Below, piece after piece: positions 6,514-32,865 of a DNA stretch of 37,563 bases. Source of the DNA: a virus; the IMG/VR virus record IMGVR_UViG_3300011013_000040, positions 1 to 37,563 of that record. One strand, 5' to 3'. The number at the start of each line of letters is the position of its first letter. Within the stretch, counting starts at the first letter, position 1. The position numbers were made by a program, and so were the translations under genes. The notes under the pieces were generated by a model that was not told the DNA's origin, made no database searches, and worked only from the letters and a program-made list of their open reading frames with translations.

Positions 6514-8516
6514 TCGACCGGCCGCAGAAACCGGCGGACTTCGACGGCGCGGAGGAAATTAGACGGGCATGGCTGGCGGGGCTGGCACCGGACCCGGCGC
6601 TGACGGTCAGTCAGTGGTCGGATCGGCACCGGATACTGTCCTCGCGGGCGGCCTCGGAGGCCGGACCGTATCGGACCGCGCGCACGCCGTACATGCGCGA
6701 GATCATGGATGCGCTCAGCCCGAGCGATCCGGCGCGGCGCGTGGTGTTCATGAAGTCGGCTCAGGTTGGCGCGACCGAGGCCGGCAATAACTGGATCGGG
6801 TTTTGCGTCCACCGGGCGCCGGGCCCGTTCCTTGCGGTGCAGCCGACGGTCGATCTGGCCAAGCGGCTGAGCCAGCAGCGGATCGATCCGCTGATCGAGG
6901 AAAGCCCGGACCTGCGCGAGCTGGTCATGCCATCACGATCGAGGGACAGCGGCAATACGATTCTGGCCAAGCGTTTCCCGGGCGGGCAGCTGATCCTGAC
7001 CGGGGCCAACAGCGCGGTGGGCCTGCGCTCGATGCCGGCGCGTTGGGTGTTCATGGACGAGGTCGATGCCTATCCGGGCGACGTCGATGGCGAGGGCGAC
7101 CCGATCGCGCTGGCCGAGGCACGCACAAACAGCTTCGGGCATCGCTCCAAGATATTTCTGGCCTCGACGCCCACGATCACCGGGGCCAGCCGGATCGAGC
7201 GGGAGTATGAATTGAGCGACCAGCGGCGCTATCACGTTCCGTGCCCACACTGTGGCGGCCTGCAATGGTTGCAGTTCGAGCGCCTGCGCTGGGAGAATGG
7301 TAAGCCGGAGACGGCACATTATCTGTGCGAACACTGCGAGGAACCGATTGAAGAACGGCACAAGACACAGGTGATGGCCGAGGAATCCGGCGCCTGCTGG
7401 ATGCCGACTGCGGATGATGAAACCCGGGCCCGGGCGGAAGAGGCCGGCACCGTCGGCTATCACATCAACGGCCTCTATTCGCCGCTCGGGTGGTTGAGCT
7501 GGGCCGAGATCGCGCGCAGCTGGGAACAGGCGGTCGGGAACGAGGCCGCGCTGAAGACGCTGAAAAACACGGTTCTGGGCGAGACCTGGCAGGAGAAGGG
7601 CGAGGCCCCGGACTGGCAGCGGCTCTATGACCGCCGCGAGGACTGGCAGCTCGGGCATGTTCCGAAAGGCGGGCTGGTGCTGACCGCCGGCGCGGATGTG
7701 CAGCGCGACCGGCTCGAGATAGACGTCTGGGCATGGGGGCGCAATCTCGAAAGCTGGCTGGTGGAGCATATCGTGTTCGACGGTGATACCGGCGACACCA
7801 GTTCCGAGGTCTGGGCCAACCTGACGGAGCTGCTCGGCACGACGTGGCCGCATGCGGACGGGCAGCGAATGGCGCTGGCGAAGCTGGCGATCGATACCGG
7901 CGACGGTCGGACGACCAGCGTCGTCTACGACTGGGTTCGCTCGGCCGGACATGGGCAGGTGTTGGCGATCAAGGGTGTTGGCGGGTTCGACCGCTCCACG
8001 CCGGTCGACGGGCCGACATTCCCGGACAAGACGGAATCCGGACGCAAGGTGAAGAGCGGAATCCATCTCTGGAAGATCGCGGGCGCGGTGTTCAAGTCTG
8101 AACTTTACCGGCTGTTGCGGCTTAATCCGCCGGTTGGAGAGGACAACCTGTTCGAGAAGGTCGAATGGCCGGCGGGATATGTCCACATCGCGAAGGGCAC
8201 GCCGGCGGAATGGGTCAAGCAGCTGACCGCCGAGCAGCTGGTGGTAATCAAGACCCGGCAGGGGTTTCAGAAGCTGGAATGGCAGAAGCTGCGGGAGCGC
8301 AACGAGGCGCTGGACTGCCGGGTCTATGCCCGCGGGGCGGCATGGCTGATGGGGATTGATCGCTGGGACGACCGGCGCTGGGACGAGATGGAGGCGCAGC
8401 TGGCGCCGGAGCAGGCGGAAACGCTGCCGGCCGGGGTGCCGGGACGTCCGCGACAAGGAAAACTACCACGCCGGGGAACGGACTGGCTTGGATCGCGCAG
8501 AGGGAATTGGTTCTGA
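6510..8516 (+). CDS. Terminase large subunit, GpA family
   Basis: This 668-residue protein is the ATP-driven packaging motor and nuclease. The adenine-binding and Walker A region is at residues about 80-92 (FMKSAQVGATEAGNN), Walker B at 179-186 (WVFMDEVD), and the coupling motif SSTPT-like at LASTPTITG. A CxxC...CxxC zinc-like element (CPHCGG ... CEHCEE) follows. The nuclease half has the acidic residues LTAGADVQRDRLEIDVWAWG and LAIDTGDGRTTSVVYDW. Length and order match lambda gpA-like terminases, which usually cut at cos sites. It starts with an ATGA overlap on the small membrane gene. Confidence 0.92.
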   Translation: MIDRPQKPADFDGAEEIRRAWLAGLAPDPALTVSQWSDRHRILSSRAASEAGPYRTARTPYMREIMDALSPSDPARRVVFMKSAQVGATEAGNNWIGFCVHRAPGPFLAVQPTVDLAKRLSQQRIDPLIEESPDLRELVMPSRSRDSGNTILAKRFPGGQLILTGANSAVGLRSMPARWVFMDEVDAYPGDVDGEGDPIALAEARTNSFGHRSKIFLASTPTITGASRIEREYELSDQRRYHVPCPHCGGLQWLQFERLRWENGKPETAHYLCEHCEEPIEERHKTQVMAEESGACWMPTADDETRARAEEAGTVGYHINGLYSPLGWLSWAEIARSWEQAVGNEAALKTLKNTVLGETWQEKGEAPDWQRLYDRREDWQLGHVPKGGLVLTAGADVQRDRLEIDVWAWGRNLESWLVEHIVFDGDTGDTSSEVWANLTELLGTTWPHADGQRMALAKLAIDTGDGRTTSVVYDWVRSAGHGQVLAIKGVGGFDRSTPVDGPTFPDKTESGRKVKSGIHLWKIAGAVFKSELYRLLRLNPPVGEDNLFEKVEWPAGYVHIAKGTPAEWVKQLTAEQLVVIKTRQGFQKLEWQKLRERNEALDCRVYARGAAWLMGIDRWDDRRWDEMEAQLAPEQAETLPAGVPGRPRQGKLPRRGTDWLGSRRGNWF

Positions 8517-8517
8517 G

Positions 8518-8727
8518 ATGGCATTCACGCAAGCACAGCTGGACGCGGCCGAGGCGGCCTATGCCGCCGGCGTGCGCCGGTTCACCTATGACGGCAAGAC
8601 CACCGAATATGCCTCGATGGCCGAGCTGTGGACTGCAATCCAACGGATGAGCTCCGCAATCGCGACGGCCGGCGGCTCGCCGCTTCCGGTGGCCGGTTAC
8701 AGTTCGTTCCGGAGGACCAGCGGATGA
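8518..8727 (+). CDS. Head-tail joining protein, gpW-like
   Basis: This 69-residue protein opens MAFTQAQLDAAEAAYAAGVR and continues FTYDGKTTEYASMAELWTAI, the typical pattern of small gpW-type proteins found between terminase and portal. In lambda, gpW stabilises packaged DNA and forms a platform below the portal for tail attachment. The start ATG 8518 lies right after the terminase stop (TGAG-ATG), and the 3' end overlaps the portal start by four bases. Confidence 0.7.
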   Translation: MAFTQAQLDAAEAAYAAGVRRFTYDGKTTEYASMAELWTAIQRMSSAIATAGGSPLPVAGYSSFRRTSG

Positions 8728-10298
8728 GCCAATCGACAACCGGCGCAAAACCGGACGTGGCCGCGCGGGCGGTGACGGACGTCAAGTGGGGCCTGATCGA
8801 CGCCGCCGTATCGGCGGTCGCGCCGCGCTGGGGTGCCAAACGCTACGCCGCGCGGGTTGCAATCGCCAACATGCGTCGGGGCTATGACGCCGCCGCGCGC
8901 GACCGGAGCACCGATGGCTGGGTGTCGGGGAACACTTCGGCCGATGCCGAGATTGCCACCGCTGGCGCAATCCTGCGCGACCGGATGCGCGATCTGGTGC
9001 GCAACAACGCAATTGCCGCGCAGGCGGTGCAGGTGCTGGTCAACAACATCGTCGGCACCGGCATCGTGCCGCGCGCAAACACCGGCGATCCTTCGCTGGA
9101 CGCATCGGTTGATGGCCTCTGGGCGCGCTGGGCAGCGGGCGCGGATGCTCATGGGCATACCACGTTTCAGGGGCTGTTGAGTCTCGCTGTGCGGGAGATG
9201 ATCGAGGGTGGCGAGGTTTTCGCCGTCAAGCGTGTGCTGCGAGCGAGCGGCAAAGACCTGCCAGCCGGTGTGCCGCTCAGGATAGAGATGCGCGAGGCCG
9301 ATCATCTGGTCGATACGGTGAGCAGCACCGGGCTGACCAGCAAGGCGCGCATCATCAACGGGATCGAGTACGACCGTTTCGGTCGCCGCACCGCATATTG
9401 GATGTATCGCGATCACCCGGGCAGCATTAATCTGGCTCTGAGCCTCAAGCCGGTTCGGGTGCCGGCCGAGAAAGTGGCGCATCTGTTTGAACGCCAGCGG
9501 GTGCAAAACCGGGGCGTGCCCTGGGGAACGCCGGCGATGCGCGCGATCCGCGACGTGGACGACTGGCAGCGCGCCGAGCTGGTGCGCAAGAAAACCGAGG
9601 CCTGCATGGTTGGCATCGTGTTCGGCGCCGACGAGGACCAGATGTCGATGGCGCCGACAGTGCAGGACGCCGACGGCAATCTGATTGAGCAGTTCGAGCC
9701 GGGCCTGATCGCCTATGCGCGCGGCGGCAAGGACATCAAATTCAACCAGCCGTCCAGCACCGCCGGCGTTTACGAGTGGCACAAGACCCAGCTGCACATC
9801 ATCGCCTCGGGATTCCGGGTGCCCTATGCGCTAATGACTGGCGATCTGAGCCAGACCAGCTTTTCGTCCTCGCGCGTCGGGCTCAATGAATTCCGCAGGA
9901 TGGTCAGCCAGTTGCAGCATCAGACCGTGATCCCGATGTTCTGCGATCCGGTCTGGAGCTGGTTCATCGAGATGGCGCAGGTGGCCGGGCTGCTGCCCAC
10001 CGACGCGCAGATCCCGGTGCAATGGACGCCGCCGCGCTTTGAGAGCGTTAACCCGCTGCAGGATGCGCAGGCGGACATGCTCGAGGTGCGGGCCGGGTTC
10101 TCGAGCCTGCCGCAGCAGATCGCGAGGCGAGGCCAAGACCCGGAGACGCTGATCGCGGATTGGGCGGCCTTCGCCGATCGGACCGACGCGCTGGGCCTCG
10201 TGTTCGACAGCGATCCGCGCCTCGTGAGCAAGGCCGGGCTGGTGCAGGCCAGCGATCCGACCCAGCTGGCCGATCAGGCCGGCCAGGGCGGCATGTAA
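8724..10298 (+). CDS. Portal protein, lambda gpB family
   Basis: This 524-residue protein forms the dodecameric portal ring. Family features are GYDAAARDRSTDGWVSGNTS, ILRDRMRDLVRNNAIAAQAV, then VQVLVNNIVGTGIVPRA near the N-terminus, the central ADHLVDT...GIEYDRFGRRTAYWMY, and YALMTGDLSQTSFSSSRVGL near the C-terminus. The start ATG 8724 has GGAGG at 8711-8715 and an ATGA overlap with the gpW-like gene. It lies in standard order before the protease-capsid gene. Confidence 0.92.
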   Translation: MSQSTTGAKPDVAARAVTDVKWGLIDAAVSAVAPRWGAKRYAARVAIANMRRGYDAAARDRSTDGWVSGNTSADAEIATAGAILRDRMRDLVRNNAIAAQAVQVLVNNIVGTGIVPRANTGDPSLDASVDGLWARWAAGADAHGHTTFQGLLSLAVREMIEGGEVFAVKRVLRASGKDLPAGVPLRIEMREADHLVDTVSSTGLTSKARIINGIEYDRFGRRTAYWMYRDHPGSINLALSLKPVRVPAEKVAHLFERQRVQNRGVPWGTPAMRAIRDVDDWQRAELVRKKTEACMVGIVFGADEDQMSMAPTVQDADGNLIEQFEPGLIAYARGGKDIKFNQPSSTAGVYEWHKTQLHIIASGFRVPYALMTGDLSQTSFSSSRVGLNEFRRMVSQLQHQTVIPMFCDPVWSWFIEMAQVAGLLPTDAQIPVQWTPPRFESVNPLQDAQADMLEVRAGFSSLPQQIARRGQDPETLIADWAAFADRTDALGLVFDSDPRLVSKAGLVQASDPTQLADQAGQGGM

Positions 10299-29989: not shown

Positions 29990-30084
29990 GCTCCCCCATC
30001 ACGCTTGTCGGCGTCCATCTGATCCGCAAAGTTCGCCCCCAGGCGTCCGAGCTCGGCCATAGTCCAGTAACAGCGATCACTCAT
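29986..30084 (-). CDS. Small hypothetical protein, 32 residues
   Basis: ATG at 30084 on the minus strand opens a 32-codon frame (MSDRCYWTMAELGRLGANFA, then an acidic/basic end) closing at 29986. Both ends are ATGA overlaps, with the upstream gene stop and the excisionase start. Composition is protein-like and includes a helix-forming segment. No family recognised. Confidence 0.45.
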   Translation of the reverse strand: MSDRCYWTMAELGRLGANFADQMDADKRDGGA

Positions 30085-30305
30085 ATCTCCATCTCCATCT
30101 GCGTGATCCCCGGGTCATTCTGCGGATCCCAAGTCCACGGGCCAGAGGCCATGGGCAGCTGCGAGAGAGCGCCACGCATGTGCCGCTGCCAGTGGGTGAA
30201 CTCCGTTGCCGAGCAGGCGCAGAGCGCGTGCCCGATGGGCCAGCCCATCAGCCATCCGACAAAGAGCGGATTGAGGCTAAGACCGTTTCTGGGAGGTAGC
30301 ACCAT
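30081..30305 (-). CDS. Short conserved phage protein, possibly a methylase C-terminal remnant
   Basis: This 74-residue protein has NGLSLNPLFVGWLMGWPIGH and then CSATEFTHWQRHMRGALSQL. The L-N-P-x-F-V-x-W-L-M-G-W-P phrase is the C-terminal signature of phage DNA-methylase-related proteins, but here no catalytic domain precedes it. The ATG 30305 lies one base after the HNH stop and the stop overlaps the next micro-gene. It is either a stand-alone small protein or a truncated remnant that stayed in the operon. Confidence 0.45.
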   Translation of the reverse strand: MVLPPRNGLSLNPLFVGWLMGWPIGHALCACSATEFTHWQRHMRGALSQLPMASGPWTWDPQNDPGITQMEMEI

Positions 30306-30306
30306 G

Positions 30307-30753
30307 TCATGCTGTGTTCTCTGGAAGATTCAATGAAGCCTGCCCGACAGATTCTTCCAGTCGGCGCCGTATACCGGCGCGGCGCATCGGCGCGTCGTAG
30401 GTATTGTGGCAACGCTGGCAGATCGCTACGAGGTTCTCGCGGGCGCAGTTCTCTGGTTGGTGATCGAGATGGGCGACGGTCAGGACCACCCGAACAGGCC
30501 TCGCCCAATCGCAGGTGTCCTCGCTGCTGTCTGGCACCGCCTGGCAGGTTACGGCATCGAAACCATCTTCGTATGCCGATTGGTTGGCGTAGCGATAAAG
30601 CGCGCGGCCATCAGCTGACCTCCCGCGTCTGATAATGCCGCCGTTCCAGACGCCGCACCATTCGCAGCGGTTCCCCGCCTCGGCACGAACGCGGGCGGAT
30701 ATTTCTGGCCAATCGGCGGGATACCGTTTCCGGTTTTCGGGGCGGATCGGCAT
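30307..30753 (-). CDS. HNH endonuclease
   Basis: This 148-residue protein has an HNH nuclease domain. CEWCG supplies the first metal-binding Cys pair, TVAHLDHQPENCARENLVAI holds the H-x-x-H-x...N-L core, and CQRCHNTYD supplies the second Cys pair and final His. It probably nicks or cuts DNA; in this early operon it could act in recombination, homing or exclusion. No terminase-linked position is seen. ATG 30753 overlaps the preceding stop as TGATG. Confidence 0.85.
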   Translation of the reverse strand: MPIRPENRKRYPADWPEISARVRAEAGNRCEWCGVWNGGIIRRGRSADGRALYRYANQSAYEDGFDAVTCQAVPDSSEDTCDWARPVRVVLTVAHLDHQPENCARENLVAICQRCHNTYDAPMRRAGIRRRLEESVGQASLNLPENTA

Positions 30754-31127
30754 CAGCGGCCATCCTTCAAAACGCGCTTCATGGCAGTGATAACTGTCCT
30801 GTTGAAGGTTTCTGATGGTTCATCCTCGATGAACCATTCAAACCGCAGCATCGCACCTCCGGGCCCGATAATGGTGATTGTGGTCTGACCTTCATTGATG
30901 ATCATCGCGTGTGTGATCGCGTCTTGGATGCCCTGTGCCAGCGCCTCGCGGAAATCGGGGCAATCCTGATCGTCCTCGTTCAGCCAAGCCTCGATGCCAT
31001 CAACGACTTCGTCCGCACCTCGGCGCTGCACCGCTTCATCCAGCAGGTTCATGGCGCGGTAGATATCATCATTCTTGTCCTCGTCGTGTATTTTCAGTTT
31101 GACGTTAAGAGTTTGCTCTTCAGCCAT
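30753..31127 (-). CDS. Hypothetical acidic early protein
   Basis: A 124-residue protein starts at ATG 31127, with GAGGAA a few bases upstream. It is strongly acidic (KLKIHDEDKNDDIYRAMNLL, EAWLNEDDQDCPDFREALAQ) with a beta-rich end (GQTTITIIGPGGAMLRFEWF). No known family. Early left-operon position suggests a host-takeover or accessory function; an acidic surface could mimic DNA, but that is speculation. Confidence 0.55.
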   Translation of the reverse strand: MAEEQTLNVKLKIHDEDKNDDIYRAMNLLDEAVQRRGADEVVDGIEAWLNEDDQDCPDFREALAQGIQDAITHAMIINEGQTTITIIGPGGAMLRFEWFIEDEPSETFNRTVITAMKRVLKDGR

Positions 31128-31128
31128 T

Positions 31129-31221
31129 TCAGTTCCTCTGCTTTCCGTCGCTGGCCTCTGTTGCCAGAGGCCAGAAAAAGAAGTCAGCGTTGCGGAGTTC
31201 AATTTGGTCAGTGTTGGTCAT
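31129..31221 (-). CDS. Micro-protein, 30 residues
   Basis: ATG 31221 has GGAAGGA about six bases upstream and encodes MTNTDQIELRNADFFFWPLA plus ten more residues, ending one base before the next gene start. A longer form would start at 31242 inside the direct-repeat junction. Function unknown. Confidence 0.4.
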   Translation of the reverse strand: MTNTDQIELRNADFFFWPLATEASDGKQRN

Positions 31222-31239
31222 GATGTTCCTTCCGTTTTT

Positions 31240-31317
31240 CATCAGCTGTCGTCCCTCATGGCACCGAGGACATTCCCGGCGGCGCGGATCCAGTTTGCTG
31301 CGAGCTCGTCGAGGTTT
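31240..31317. repeat. 78-bp direct repeat, copy 1
   Basis: This is identical, base for base, to 32242-32319, 1002 bases away. The copy holds the last 24 codons of the gene at 32244-32531 plus the TGATG junction and the first base pair of the following start. The two copies flank the PAPS-reductase-like gene. Confidence 0.95.
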
Positions 31318-31328
31318 ATGGCGGTCAT
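31242..31328 (-). CDS. Duplicated tail of the 95-residue gene, 28 residues with its own start
   Basis: ATG 31328 gives M-T-A-I and then NLDELAANWIRAAGNVLGAM-RDDS, the same ending as the gene at 32244-32531. GGAG lies upstream and the ATGA overlap with the preceding frame gives coupling. It is probably a by-product of the duplication that created the repeats; whether the peptide has a role is unknown. Confidence 0.4.
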   Translation of the reverse strand: MTAINLDELAANWIRAAGNVLGAMRDDS

Positions 31329-31411
31329 GTCGGTGTCTCCATTCCATTGCAGGCTTGATGATGTCCGGCCCATTGCACAGCTGCGGGTCTATGGCAGGTC
31401 TTGTCGATCAT
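31325..31411 (-). CDS. Micro-protein, 28 residues
   Basis: ATG 31411 overlaps the PAPS-reductase-like stop (ATGA). The frame runs 28 codons (MIDKTCHRPAAVQWAGHHQA and eight more) to a TGA that overlaps the next start. It has two Cys and four His residues. It could be a leader that keeps translation coupled across the cassette. Confidence 0.3.
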   Translation of the reverse strand: MIDKTCHRPAAVQWAGHHQACNGMETPT

Positions 31412-32244
31412 TGGGTGCATTCCCCACCATTAGCTTGACAAAATCCGTCCTCAATCGAGAACAGCAGTTCACCTTGACGCTCGACGGTATCGCGCAACTG
31501 TGCCCTGGTGAATTGGTCTCTGAACCGGGCACCGTTCGCGCTGGTGGTGAGGCCCGAGGCTTTTGCCTCCATGCGTTCCCACCATGAGTGGCGGTCAGGA
31601 TGATCGCGGCATAGGGCGGCAAGCTGTGCCTCAGACTTCAGGAAACAGCCGTCGCAGTTTCCGTATCCCGGCTCGACGCGCAAATCGAACGGCTGTGCAT
31701 TCCAGAATCGTAGAATTGCCGCTTTGTCGATGTCCTCAAGTGGATACCAACGTTTGACTCGTTTGTCTTTCGATGGGGTTTTGCGATGGGATTCATCGGC
31801 TCGAATGCCGACAGCGTTGGTCCACTCCGTCCAACCCAAAGACATAAGGTAGCGCCTAGTGGGGAGAATTTTTAGGTGTTCGGTGCAGAACCTTTTGCTC
31901 TGATCTGGGCAGGCTTTTTTGCGCTCAATTAGCCGTTCAAATGGTTCCCCATCGAAGCTGGCCGAGTTGTGGCTAACTACGTCAAATAAGGCATCGCCGC
32001 CGCGTTTGGCATCCTCGACCCAAACGACCTGCACCGCCCATCTGTCAGAGCACTCTTGCACGAAATCCAGGGTTTCAGGCATTTCGCGCCCGGTGTTGGC
32101 AAACACCACCCGGACCCGTTCCGGCAAATCACCATTTGCGGCAAGTATCTGATGCAGCATATATGCGCTGGTGCGTCCACCGCTGAAGCTGATCAGCACT
32201 TTGTCGGGTGGCAAGATATATTTGCTTTCCGCGCGTATAAGCAT
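31408..32244 (-). CDS. PAPS-reductase-like PP-loop protein
   Basis: This 278-residue protein belongs to the PAPS reductase/ATP pyrophosphatase superfamily. The PP-loop is VLISFSGGRTSAYMLHQILA (S-G-G-R-T-S at 21-26), followed by RVVFANTGREMPETLDFVQE and the central RFCTEHLKILPTRRYLMSLG. A C-terminal Cys pair is in GYGNCDGCFLKSEAQLAALC. Such proteins activate a substrate by adenylation and often handle sulfur. Stand-alone phage versions have unknown targets; roles in DNA or tRNA thio-modification or counter-defence are conceivable. The start ATG 32244 overlaps the preceding stop as TGATG inside a 78-bp repeat. The gene sits between two such repeats, as if inserted as a cassette. Confidence 0.75.
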   Translation of the reverse strand: MLIRAESKYILPPDKVLISFSGGRTSAYMLHQILAANGDLPERVRVVFANTGREMPETLDFVQECSDRWAVQVVWVEDAKRGGDALFDVVSHNSASFDGEPFERLIERKKACPDQSKRFCTEHLKILPTRRYLMSLGWTEWTNAVGIRADESHRKTPSKDKRVKRWYPLEDIDKAAILRFWNAQPFDLRVEPGYGNCDGCFLKSEAQLAALCRDHPDRHSWWERMEAKASGLTTSANGARFRDQFTRAQLRDTVERQGELLFSIEDGFCQANGGECTQ

Positions 32245-32319
32245 CAGCTGTCGTCCCTCATGGCACCGAGGACATTCCCGGCGGCGCGGATCCAGTTTGC
32301 TGCGAGCTCGTCGAGGTTT
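32242..32319. repeat. 78-bp direct repeat, copy 2
   Basis: This is the identical partner of 31240-31317. Here it is the true 3' end of the 95-residue gene plus the start codon of the PAPS-reductase-like gene. Recombination between copies would delete 1002 bases and leave the 95-residue gene intact, fused by the same TGATG junction to the frame at 31242. Confidence 0.95.
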
Positions 32320-32531
32320 TCGGCCGCAGCAAACACTCCGAACACCTGTATCGTTTTCAATGCCGGATCGTAGACGCCTGGCACGTCCGACGGCAGGTCC
32401 CACCGGCCGCCGTGATCGATCACCGCCTGTTTCAGGATCGGCAGACGCAAGTCCTCGGTCGCAGCCTTTGTTTTGGTAAACAGGGCGGCCAGGCATGCAC
32501 ACTCCGGGCCGGATGTTTGCAGATCATCCAT
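32244..32531 (-). CDS. Hypothetical early protein, 95 residues
   Basis: Starts at ATG 32531 with GGAGGT upstream. The N-terminus CACLAALFTKTKAATEDLRL is helical, the centre YDPALKTIQVFGVFAAAE beta-like, and the end is the helical segment duplicated downstream (NLDELAANWIRAAGNVLGAM). It overlaps the XRE regulator gene by eight bases and its stop overlaps the next start. Family not recognised; small DNA- or protein-binding role possible. Confidence 0.5.
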   Translation of the reverse strand: MDDLQTSGPECACLAALFTKTKAATEDLRLPILKQAVIDHGGRWDLPSDVPGVYDPALKTIQVFGVFAAAENLDELAANWIRAAGNVLGAMRDDS

Positions 32532-32865
32532 TTTCAGACCTCCGAACTTGTCGCGGTGTTGCGGCGCGGTGCCCTGCAGTGCTCTGGCCGTTATATGGGT
32601 CGTCCGGTCGACCATCTGTGGCGCGCAAGGTTGGCGTGACCGAGTGATTGAAAAACCAGTCCACAGAGACGTTGAGGGCGTCGGCTGCACGATAGAGCCG
32701 TGCGGCCGATATGCGGTTGGCGGCAGTTTCATATTTCTGGATCTGCTGAAATCGCACGCCCAGCGCCGTCGCGAGATCGTGCTGGGTCAGTCCGAGCTCC
32801 CGGCGGCGGGCACGAATCCGGTAGCCGACAATGATGTCGATCGGGTCGGGCTGGTGCGCGCTCAT
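32524..32865 (-). CDS. XRE-family transcription regulator
   Basis: This 113-residue protein has a canonical HTH_3 domain (residues about 12-68): GYRIRARRRELGLTQHDLAT, then ALGVRFQQIQKYETAANRIS and ALNVSVDWFF. The C-terminal 40 residues are polar and probably disordered. It is carried in the early left operon, separate from the main repressor, so it may tune left-operon expression or host genes. The start overlaps the previous stop (ATGA at 32862-32865). Confidence 0.75.
   Translation of the reverse strand: MSAHQPDPIDIIVGYRIRARRRELGLTQHDLATALGVRFQQIQKYETAANRISAARLYRAADALNVSVDWFFNHSVTPTLRATDGRPDDPYNGQSTAGHRAATPRQVRRSENG

Follow-up and report, generated by a model that had tools for sequence, protein, structure and literature searches.

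A PAPS-reductase-like gene between perfect 78-bp direct repeats of a gene junction in the early operon of a likely Rhodobacteraceae phage

The phage and the locus

The window, i.e., the whole stretch of DNA analyzed here, is a complete IMG/VR virus record of 37,563 bases. It encodes an integrase (phrog_1, 1.7e-40) and a CI-like repressor (phrog_4, 4.2e-17); a ParB-like gene is also present. Among 50,697 phage records, the best DNA match of bases 1-25000 is to Rhodobacter phage portal genes (423 bases, 75.7%). Given that relatives of the early genes are found in genomes from the family of a Tabrizicola MAG, the window likely represents a temperate phage of Rhodobacteraceae. The first 90 bases of the record contain a 25-bp direct repeat (8-32 and 66-90, 92% alike, 58 bp apart), both copies of which also hold the inverted pair CCGTGTC / GACACGG.

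Table 1. Features of the early operon around gene P (window coordinates)
Feature	Coordinates	Strand	Description
HTH regulator gene	32524..32865	-	upstream of A
A	32244..32531	-	intact early gene, 95 aa; 3' end duplicated
Repeat copy 1	32242..32319	-	last 24 codons and stop of A, then the ATG starting P (TGATG)
P	31408..32244	-	278 aa, PAPS-reductase family (NinC-like); start is the ATG of the repeat
Unique cassette between the copies	31318..32241	-	924 bp: P without its ATG, plus 90 nt
Stub ORF	31242..31328	-	28 codons: MTAI (cassette side) in frame with the last 24 codons of A
Repeat copy 2	31240..31317	-	tail of the 28-codon stub, stop, ATG of the next ORF (TGATG)
ORF B	31129..31242	-	37 aa, after the second TGATG
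C	30753..31127	-	124-aa gene, next in the operon

Gene P lies between two direct copies of a 78-bp sequence (Table 1). An earlier, sequence-only reading had described perfect repeats around a PAPS-reductase-like gene that duplicate a TGATG gene junction, and both the positions and the identity are confirmed: the copies agree at 78 of 78 bp and are 1002 bp apart from start to start. Read on the minus strand, each copy begins with AAACCTCGACGAG and finishes with AGCTGATG, both ending in TGATG. The G+C content of the 924-bp cassette is 0.55, compared to 0.63 for the window. As the same reading held, the cassette leaves the upstream gene unbroken, A being intact, and loss of exactly 1002 bases would restore the operon; when the flanks are joined in silico without these bases, A, the TGATG and the 37-aa ORF are recovered.

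The stub ORF is preceded by GGAG 8 nt upstream of its ATG and ends at TGATG. ORF B contains a further in-frame ATG seven codons in, which is preceded by GGAAGG, so that the second TGATG need not be the true start of B and the inner ATG may be the real one. Farther along, at 30307-30753, there is an HNH-family gene (phrog_1571, 1.2e-25), about 500 bp from the cassette; its involvement in bringing in DNA is possible, if speculative.

The 78-bp repeat is not due to chance. At a spacing of 200-3000 bp, the window contains no further exact direct repeat of 18 bp or longer; 101 related loci (785,892 bases) contain 22 such repeats, of which two exceed 40 bp, both in a single locus (L089). The perfect identity had been taken to imply either a recent event or gene conversion. 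With 0 differences over 78 sites, the upper 95% bound on divergence is about 3.8% (rule of three); because this bounds divergence only to less than about 4%, both options are allowed and recency is a soft conclusion.

Gene P and its start

The product of P matches the Pfam family PAPS_reduct with an E-value of 1.6e-10 and a score of 41.7 bits, above the curated cut-off of 22.5, and matches phrog_424 with an E-value of 1.6e-55. By domain match, P is thus a predicted phage PAPS-reductase-like (NinC-like) gene. Less strong matches are to SspD (6.4e-17), BrxP and DndC; PDB yielded no sequence match to P. Viral contigs contain 434 relatives of P (the best 80 of the 434 were kept), and tblastn identifies 401 matching phage records, several of which carry a NinC annotation. 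According to extracts of one report, lambda ninC is annotated as a member of the PAPS-reductase family and is non-essential in a pQ-plasmid assay (PMC10695390).

Comparison within the family points to a borrowed start of P. When 113 dereplicated P loci are compared, 89 have their nearest in-frame ATG 12-18 codons ahead of the SGG motif (modes 15 and 16), 9 have it at 19 codons or more, and 15 lack an ATG. In the window, the nearest upstream ATG is 20 codons before SGG and is the ATG of the repeat, the usual family start being about 5 codons further inside P. Codon 15 has GAA here, and the sole start-like codons closer to the motif are a TTG at 10 and a GTG at 5. Given the ATG at 20 and the GAA at the usual start, P appears to have been joined to the junction of A, with its own start codon gone. 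The suggestion that the cassette borrows a start is therefore borne out in so far as P begins on the repeat's ATG. The sole other locus with an ATG at 20 codons is L003, in which P is flanked by an 18-bp stop/start junction repeat, AGGGGGCAGTGATATGGG, that contains this ATG. In L067, which has a 17-bp junction repeat, the ATG is 32 codons before SGG.

Codon use, which had been proposed as a check on the cassette, weakly fits a newcomer. The relative codon adaptation of P (0.548) and its third-position G+C (0.597) are the lowest among the genes compared, a set that excludes the ParB-like gene; the signal is weak in that gene C is below P in overall G+C.

Distribution of A and P

Gene A was not detected in any of the 223 P-bearing loci. 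In the genomes of the host family, relatives of A are present in 16 of 394 at an E-value of 0.01, 10 of these 16 matches being weak (E >1e-4); in the genus of genome G176, they are found in 3 of 10 genomes, at 7 places. None of the eight A-bearing loci with flanking DNA, all from host-family relatives, has P beside A (L280 and L282 are short contigs), and P is absent also from a further set of 14 A loci, some of which overlap the eight. One of them, L281, retains genes matching the window genes 35077, 34701, 34078, 33230 and 32862, the HTH regulator and A. There, the ORF directly behind A, about 400 aa long, is DNA methyltransferase-like, and its far end matches window positions 30081-30305 at 69%. 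L136 has a similar gene order, which then gives way to different small genes.

The 74-aa ORF at 30081-30305 in the window resembles what is left of a methyltransferase that formerly stood in the place of P, B, C and the HNH gene. Judging from these gene orders, the stretch from A to 30081 is a slot of changing content.

Searches with A and C as proteins found no match among viral contigs, and A had none among the 50,697 phage records; C gave four matches in the 394 family genomes (E 0.002-0.009), which we regard as chance. None of the relatives searched has the exact A|B joint in its empty form, lacking the 1002 bp, given that the downstream genes have no clear relatives there, as judged from C, B being too short for such searches. 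No donor of the P cassette was found in the searches, and a scan using P of L091 yielded nothing. As regards the proposed check for related phages lacking the 1002 bases, A without P is seen in eight loci, whereas the exact empty joint is not, the next gene after A in these loci being different from that in the window. The occurrence of A without P in relatives, together with that of P without A in 223 loci, indicates that P is most likely a newcomer at this place, and we infer from this distribution that the polarity is insertion rather than deletion.

Relation to known systems

The mode of insertion is not new, inasmuch as the same anatomy has already been described in mycobacteriophages. 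Extracts of Pope et al. 2011 (PMC3029335) report gene 68 of Island3, with a repeat of about 50 bp and a shared C-terminal stretch of 18 residues, and a 1.35-kb insert in LRRHood with 29-bp repeats that are single copy in Cali; these authors weighed recombination at the repeat against loss. As in those phages, the window has an extra gene behind a gene whose 3' end is directly repeated at the far side. The cases differ in that Island3 and LRRHood have relatives with one copy and no insert, the exact counterpart of which was not found in our search, and in that the repeat in the window is perfect, 78 bp long, spans stop and start and supplies the newcomer's ATG.

The locus also shares features with other modular phage genes. 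PHROGs places P in the moron and auxiliary category and, as with morons, P is additional to a set of genes that relatives maintain without it; unlike morons, it appears to be coupled into an operon. In the lambdoid nin region, as reportedly described by Clark et al. in 2001, single-gene modules in an early operon are exchanged at short shared junctions. The resemblance to the window extends to the single-gene module, the exchange at a junction and the gene family, lambda ninC being likewise annotated as PAPS-reductase family. The lambdoid boundary sequences, however, are common to several phages, whereas a 30-base piece of the 78-bp repeat had no match among viral contigs and the longest match of the repeat in the 223 P-bearing loci was 14 bases. 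Because the 78 bp are common to no phage searched, we do not assign the repeat to the lambdoid boundary sequences.

Origin of the duplicated junction

The best reading, which we consider probable, is that a foreign piece carrying P entered via two staggered crossovers at the A|B junction, with the overlap kept as the repeat. The recipient would have been a temperate phage of the Rhodobacteraceae type, with the insertion into its early operon made by two crossovers at different places. In the left crossover, the 5' end of P, deprived of its own start codon, would have been linked in frame to the ATG in A's TGATG junction. The right crossover would have connected the DNA just behind P to a second copy of the recipient, at a point 78 bp short of the junction's end, the donor point lying four codons into the apparent start of the donor's next gene. 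Crossovers separated by a gap would cost the end of A or the start of B, and overlapping ones would spare both; as only the latter keep A and B whole, the overlap would survive as a direct repeat. Such staggered crossovers would yield a repeat of variable length that covers the junction and is unlike known end sequences, so that the duplication would be the mark of surviving crossover pairs and not of a transposon. P would be translated by coupling to A, and the stub would again end at TGATG before B. In this scheme, the repeat, the intact A, the lack of the family start in P and the absence of P beside A in relatives are observed, and we infer the polarity, the two crossovers, the translational coupling and the selection. 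The insertion joints at other P loci, described below, speak for this reading; against it, neither an exact empty site nor a donor was found, and no general recombinase gene was identified among the ten window ORFs scanned. If so, the locus is a clean snapshot of a gene added to an operon, with its neighbors whole and the joint still legible.

Homologous exchange could produce the same arrangement if a related phage already had P beside an A-like tail and recombination in the shared sequence, ordinary or phage-encoded, moved P, the repeat being the homology used. Phage recombinases act on diverged stretches, according to extracts of two reports (PMC2327257, PMC3945230), and such an exchange is what Pope et al. 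2011 propose for Island3 gene 68 and LRRHood in the extracts cited above (PMC3029335). In the present case this appears rather unlikely, given that A and its tail occur in none of the 223 P-bearing loci and that the 30-base piece of the repeat is found in no other viral contig. A duplication of A around P, followed by loss of the 5' part of the second copy, would explain why the stub is in frame with the tail of A; it is improbable in that two events with no drift over 78 bp would be needed, and no locus was seen with P and A together or with two copies of A around P.

Distinctly improbable, too, is an assembly or population effect whereby the contig fuses, via the common 78 bp, an empty phage with either a filled form or a 1002-bp circle. 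The sequence comes from an IMG/VR virus record, a k of about 77 is often chosen in assembly and, by reasoning, the short-word graph is the same whether the cassette is integrated or an empty phage coexists with a circle. Yet each joint would still reflect a true adjacency, usual paired reads exceed 78 bp in length, and the loss of P's own start is in keeping with a real fusion to the junction of A. The anatomy looks like the restored 3' end left by elements that repair the gene they target, which brings to mind a small site-specific element with the 78 bp as its attachment site. This seems very far-fetched because the 924-bp cassette encodes no recombinase (P is its only sizeable recognized gene), the repeat matches at most 14 bases in the 223 P loci, and the repeats seen at other loci are unrelated to it and differ in length. 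Neither of the hallmarks of a transposon or site-specific cassette, an own recombinase or terminal inverted repeats of at least 24 bp, is seen here: the cassette has no recombinase, and no inverted repeats of this length were found in the window.

Joints around P in other phages

The preferred reading, staggered crossovers filtered by selection, invites a generalization that we advance only tentatively, namely an overlap filter by which packed phage operons would gain accessory genes through two independent crossovers, the survivors carrying junction duplications, from a few bases to 78 bp, that supply the start codon. If this were true, junction repeats would reveal recent gene gains in phage genomes and would allow measuring how new genes get start codons.

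In a survey of all 223 P loci, 33 distinct insertion differences of at least 200 bp were scored. A same-strand stop/start joint is no more than 12 bp away in 22 of these, compared to 131 of 1650 random places (7.9%), a ratio to be taken as rough, given that the loci are partly of common origin and duplicates were removed heuristically. Selection against broken genes would by itself lead to such placement. Overlaps at the insertion joints include ATGA, TGATGT, ATGGCT and TGAATGAAGC; the exact-overlap values of the survey were not used because the region scanned was too wide for short values.

Long flanking repeats are uncommon, and that of 78 bp is an extreme case. Repeats of at least 17 bp flank P in 5 of 91 cases in the first 101 loci, against 1 of 382 for control genes; after dereplication, the numbers are 3/114 and 1/425, respectively (Fisher P = 0.03). 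For this test, a usable P ORF was available in 193 of the 223 loci, giving 122 clusters, 114 of which had enough flank. In a separate comparison, the entries for L098, L100 and L101, which concern matches at contig edges, were left out. In 54 freshly fetched loci, no flanking repeats of at least 14 bp were found at P. With 3 of 114 after dereplication and none of the 54 fresh loci, the idea that junction repeats are a habit of P was rejected.

Several individual loci contain repeated joints. In L029, VVVGEW(V/I)NW(E/D)EV-stop, the last 12 codons of the upstream gene, is found on both sides of P, with diverged codons. In the phage represented by L067 and L068, ATGACCAATGGACGTGC is repeated where P and the gene after it begin, and in L012 a 19-bp repeat is located close to two gene starts. 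L037 and L049 form an empty/filled pair for another gene directly before P, with 510 bp extra, flanks that are 89% and 99% alike, and NPIRI-stop-GAAG repeated.

Three further arrangements were noticed in these loci. An insert of about 1.2 kb right behind P in L029 (3006-4241), absent in L017 and L032, begins with a copy of the tail of the upstream gene. In L067/L068, near-identical sequence is found at or near three successive gene starts (4697, 4954 and 5810), as if a gene start had been copied repeatedly within the operon. Finally, L089, a Mesobacterium contig with a relative of P, contains exact direct repeats of 714 and 77 bp at 8066-10211.
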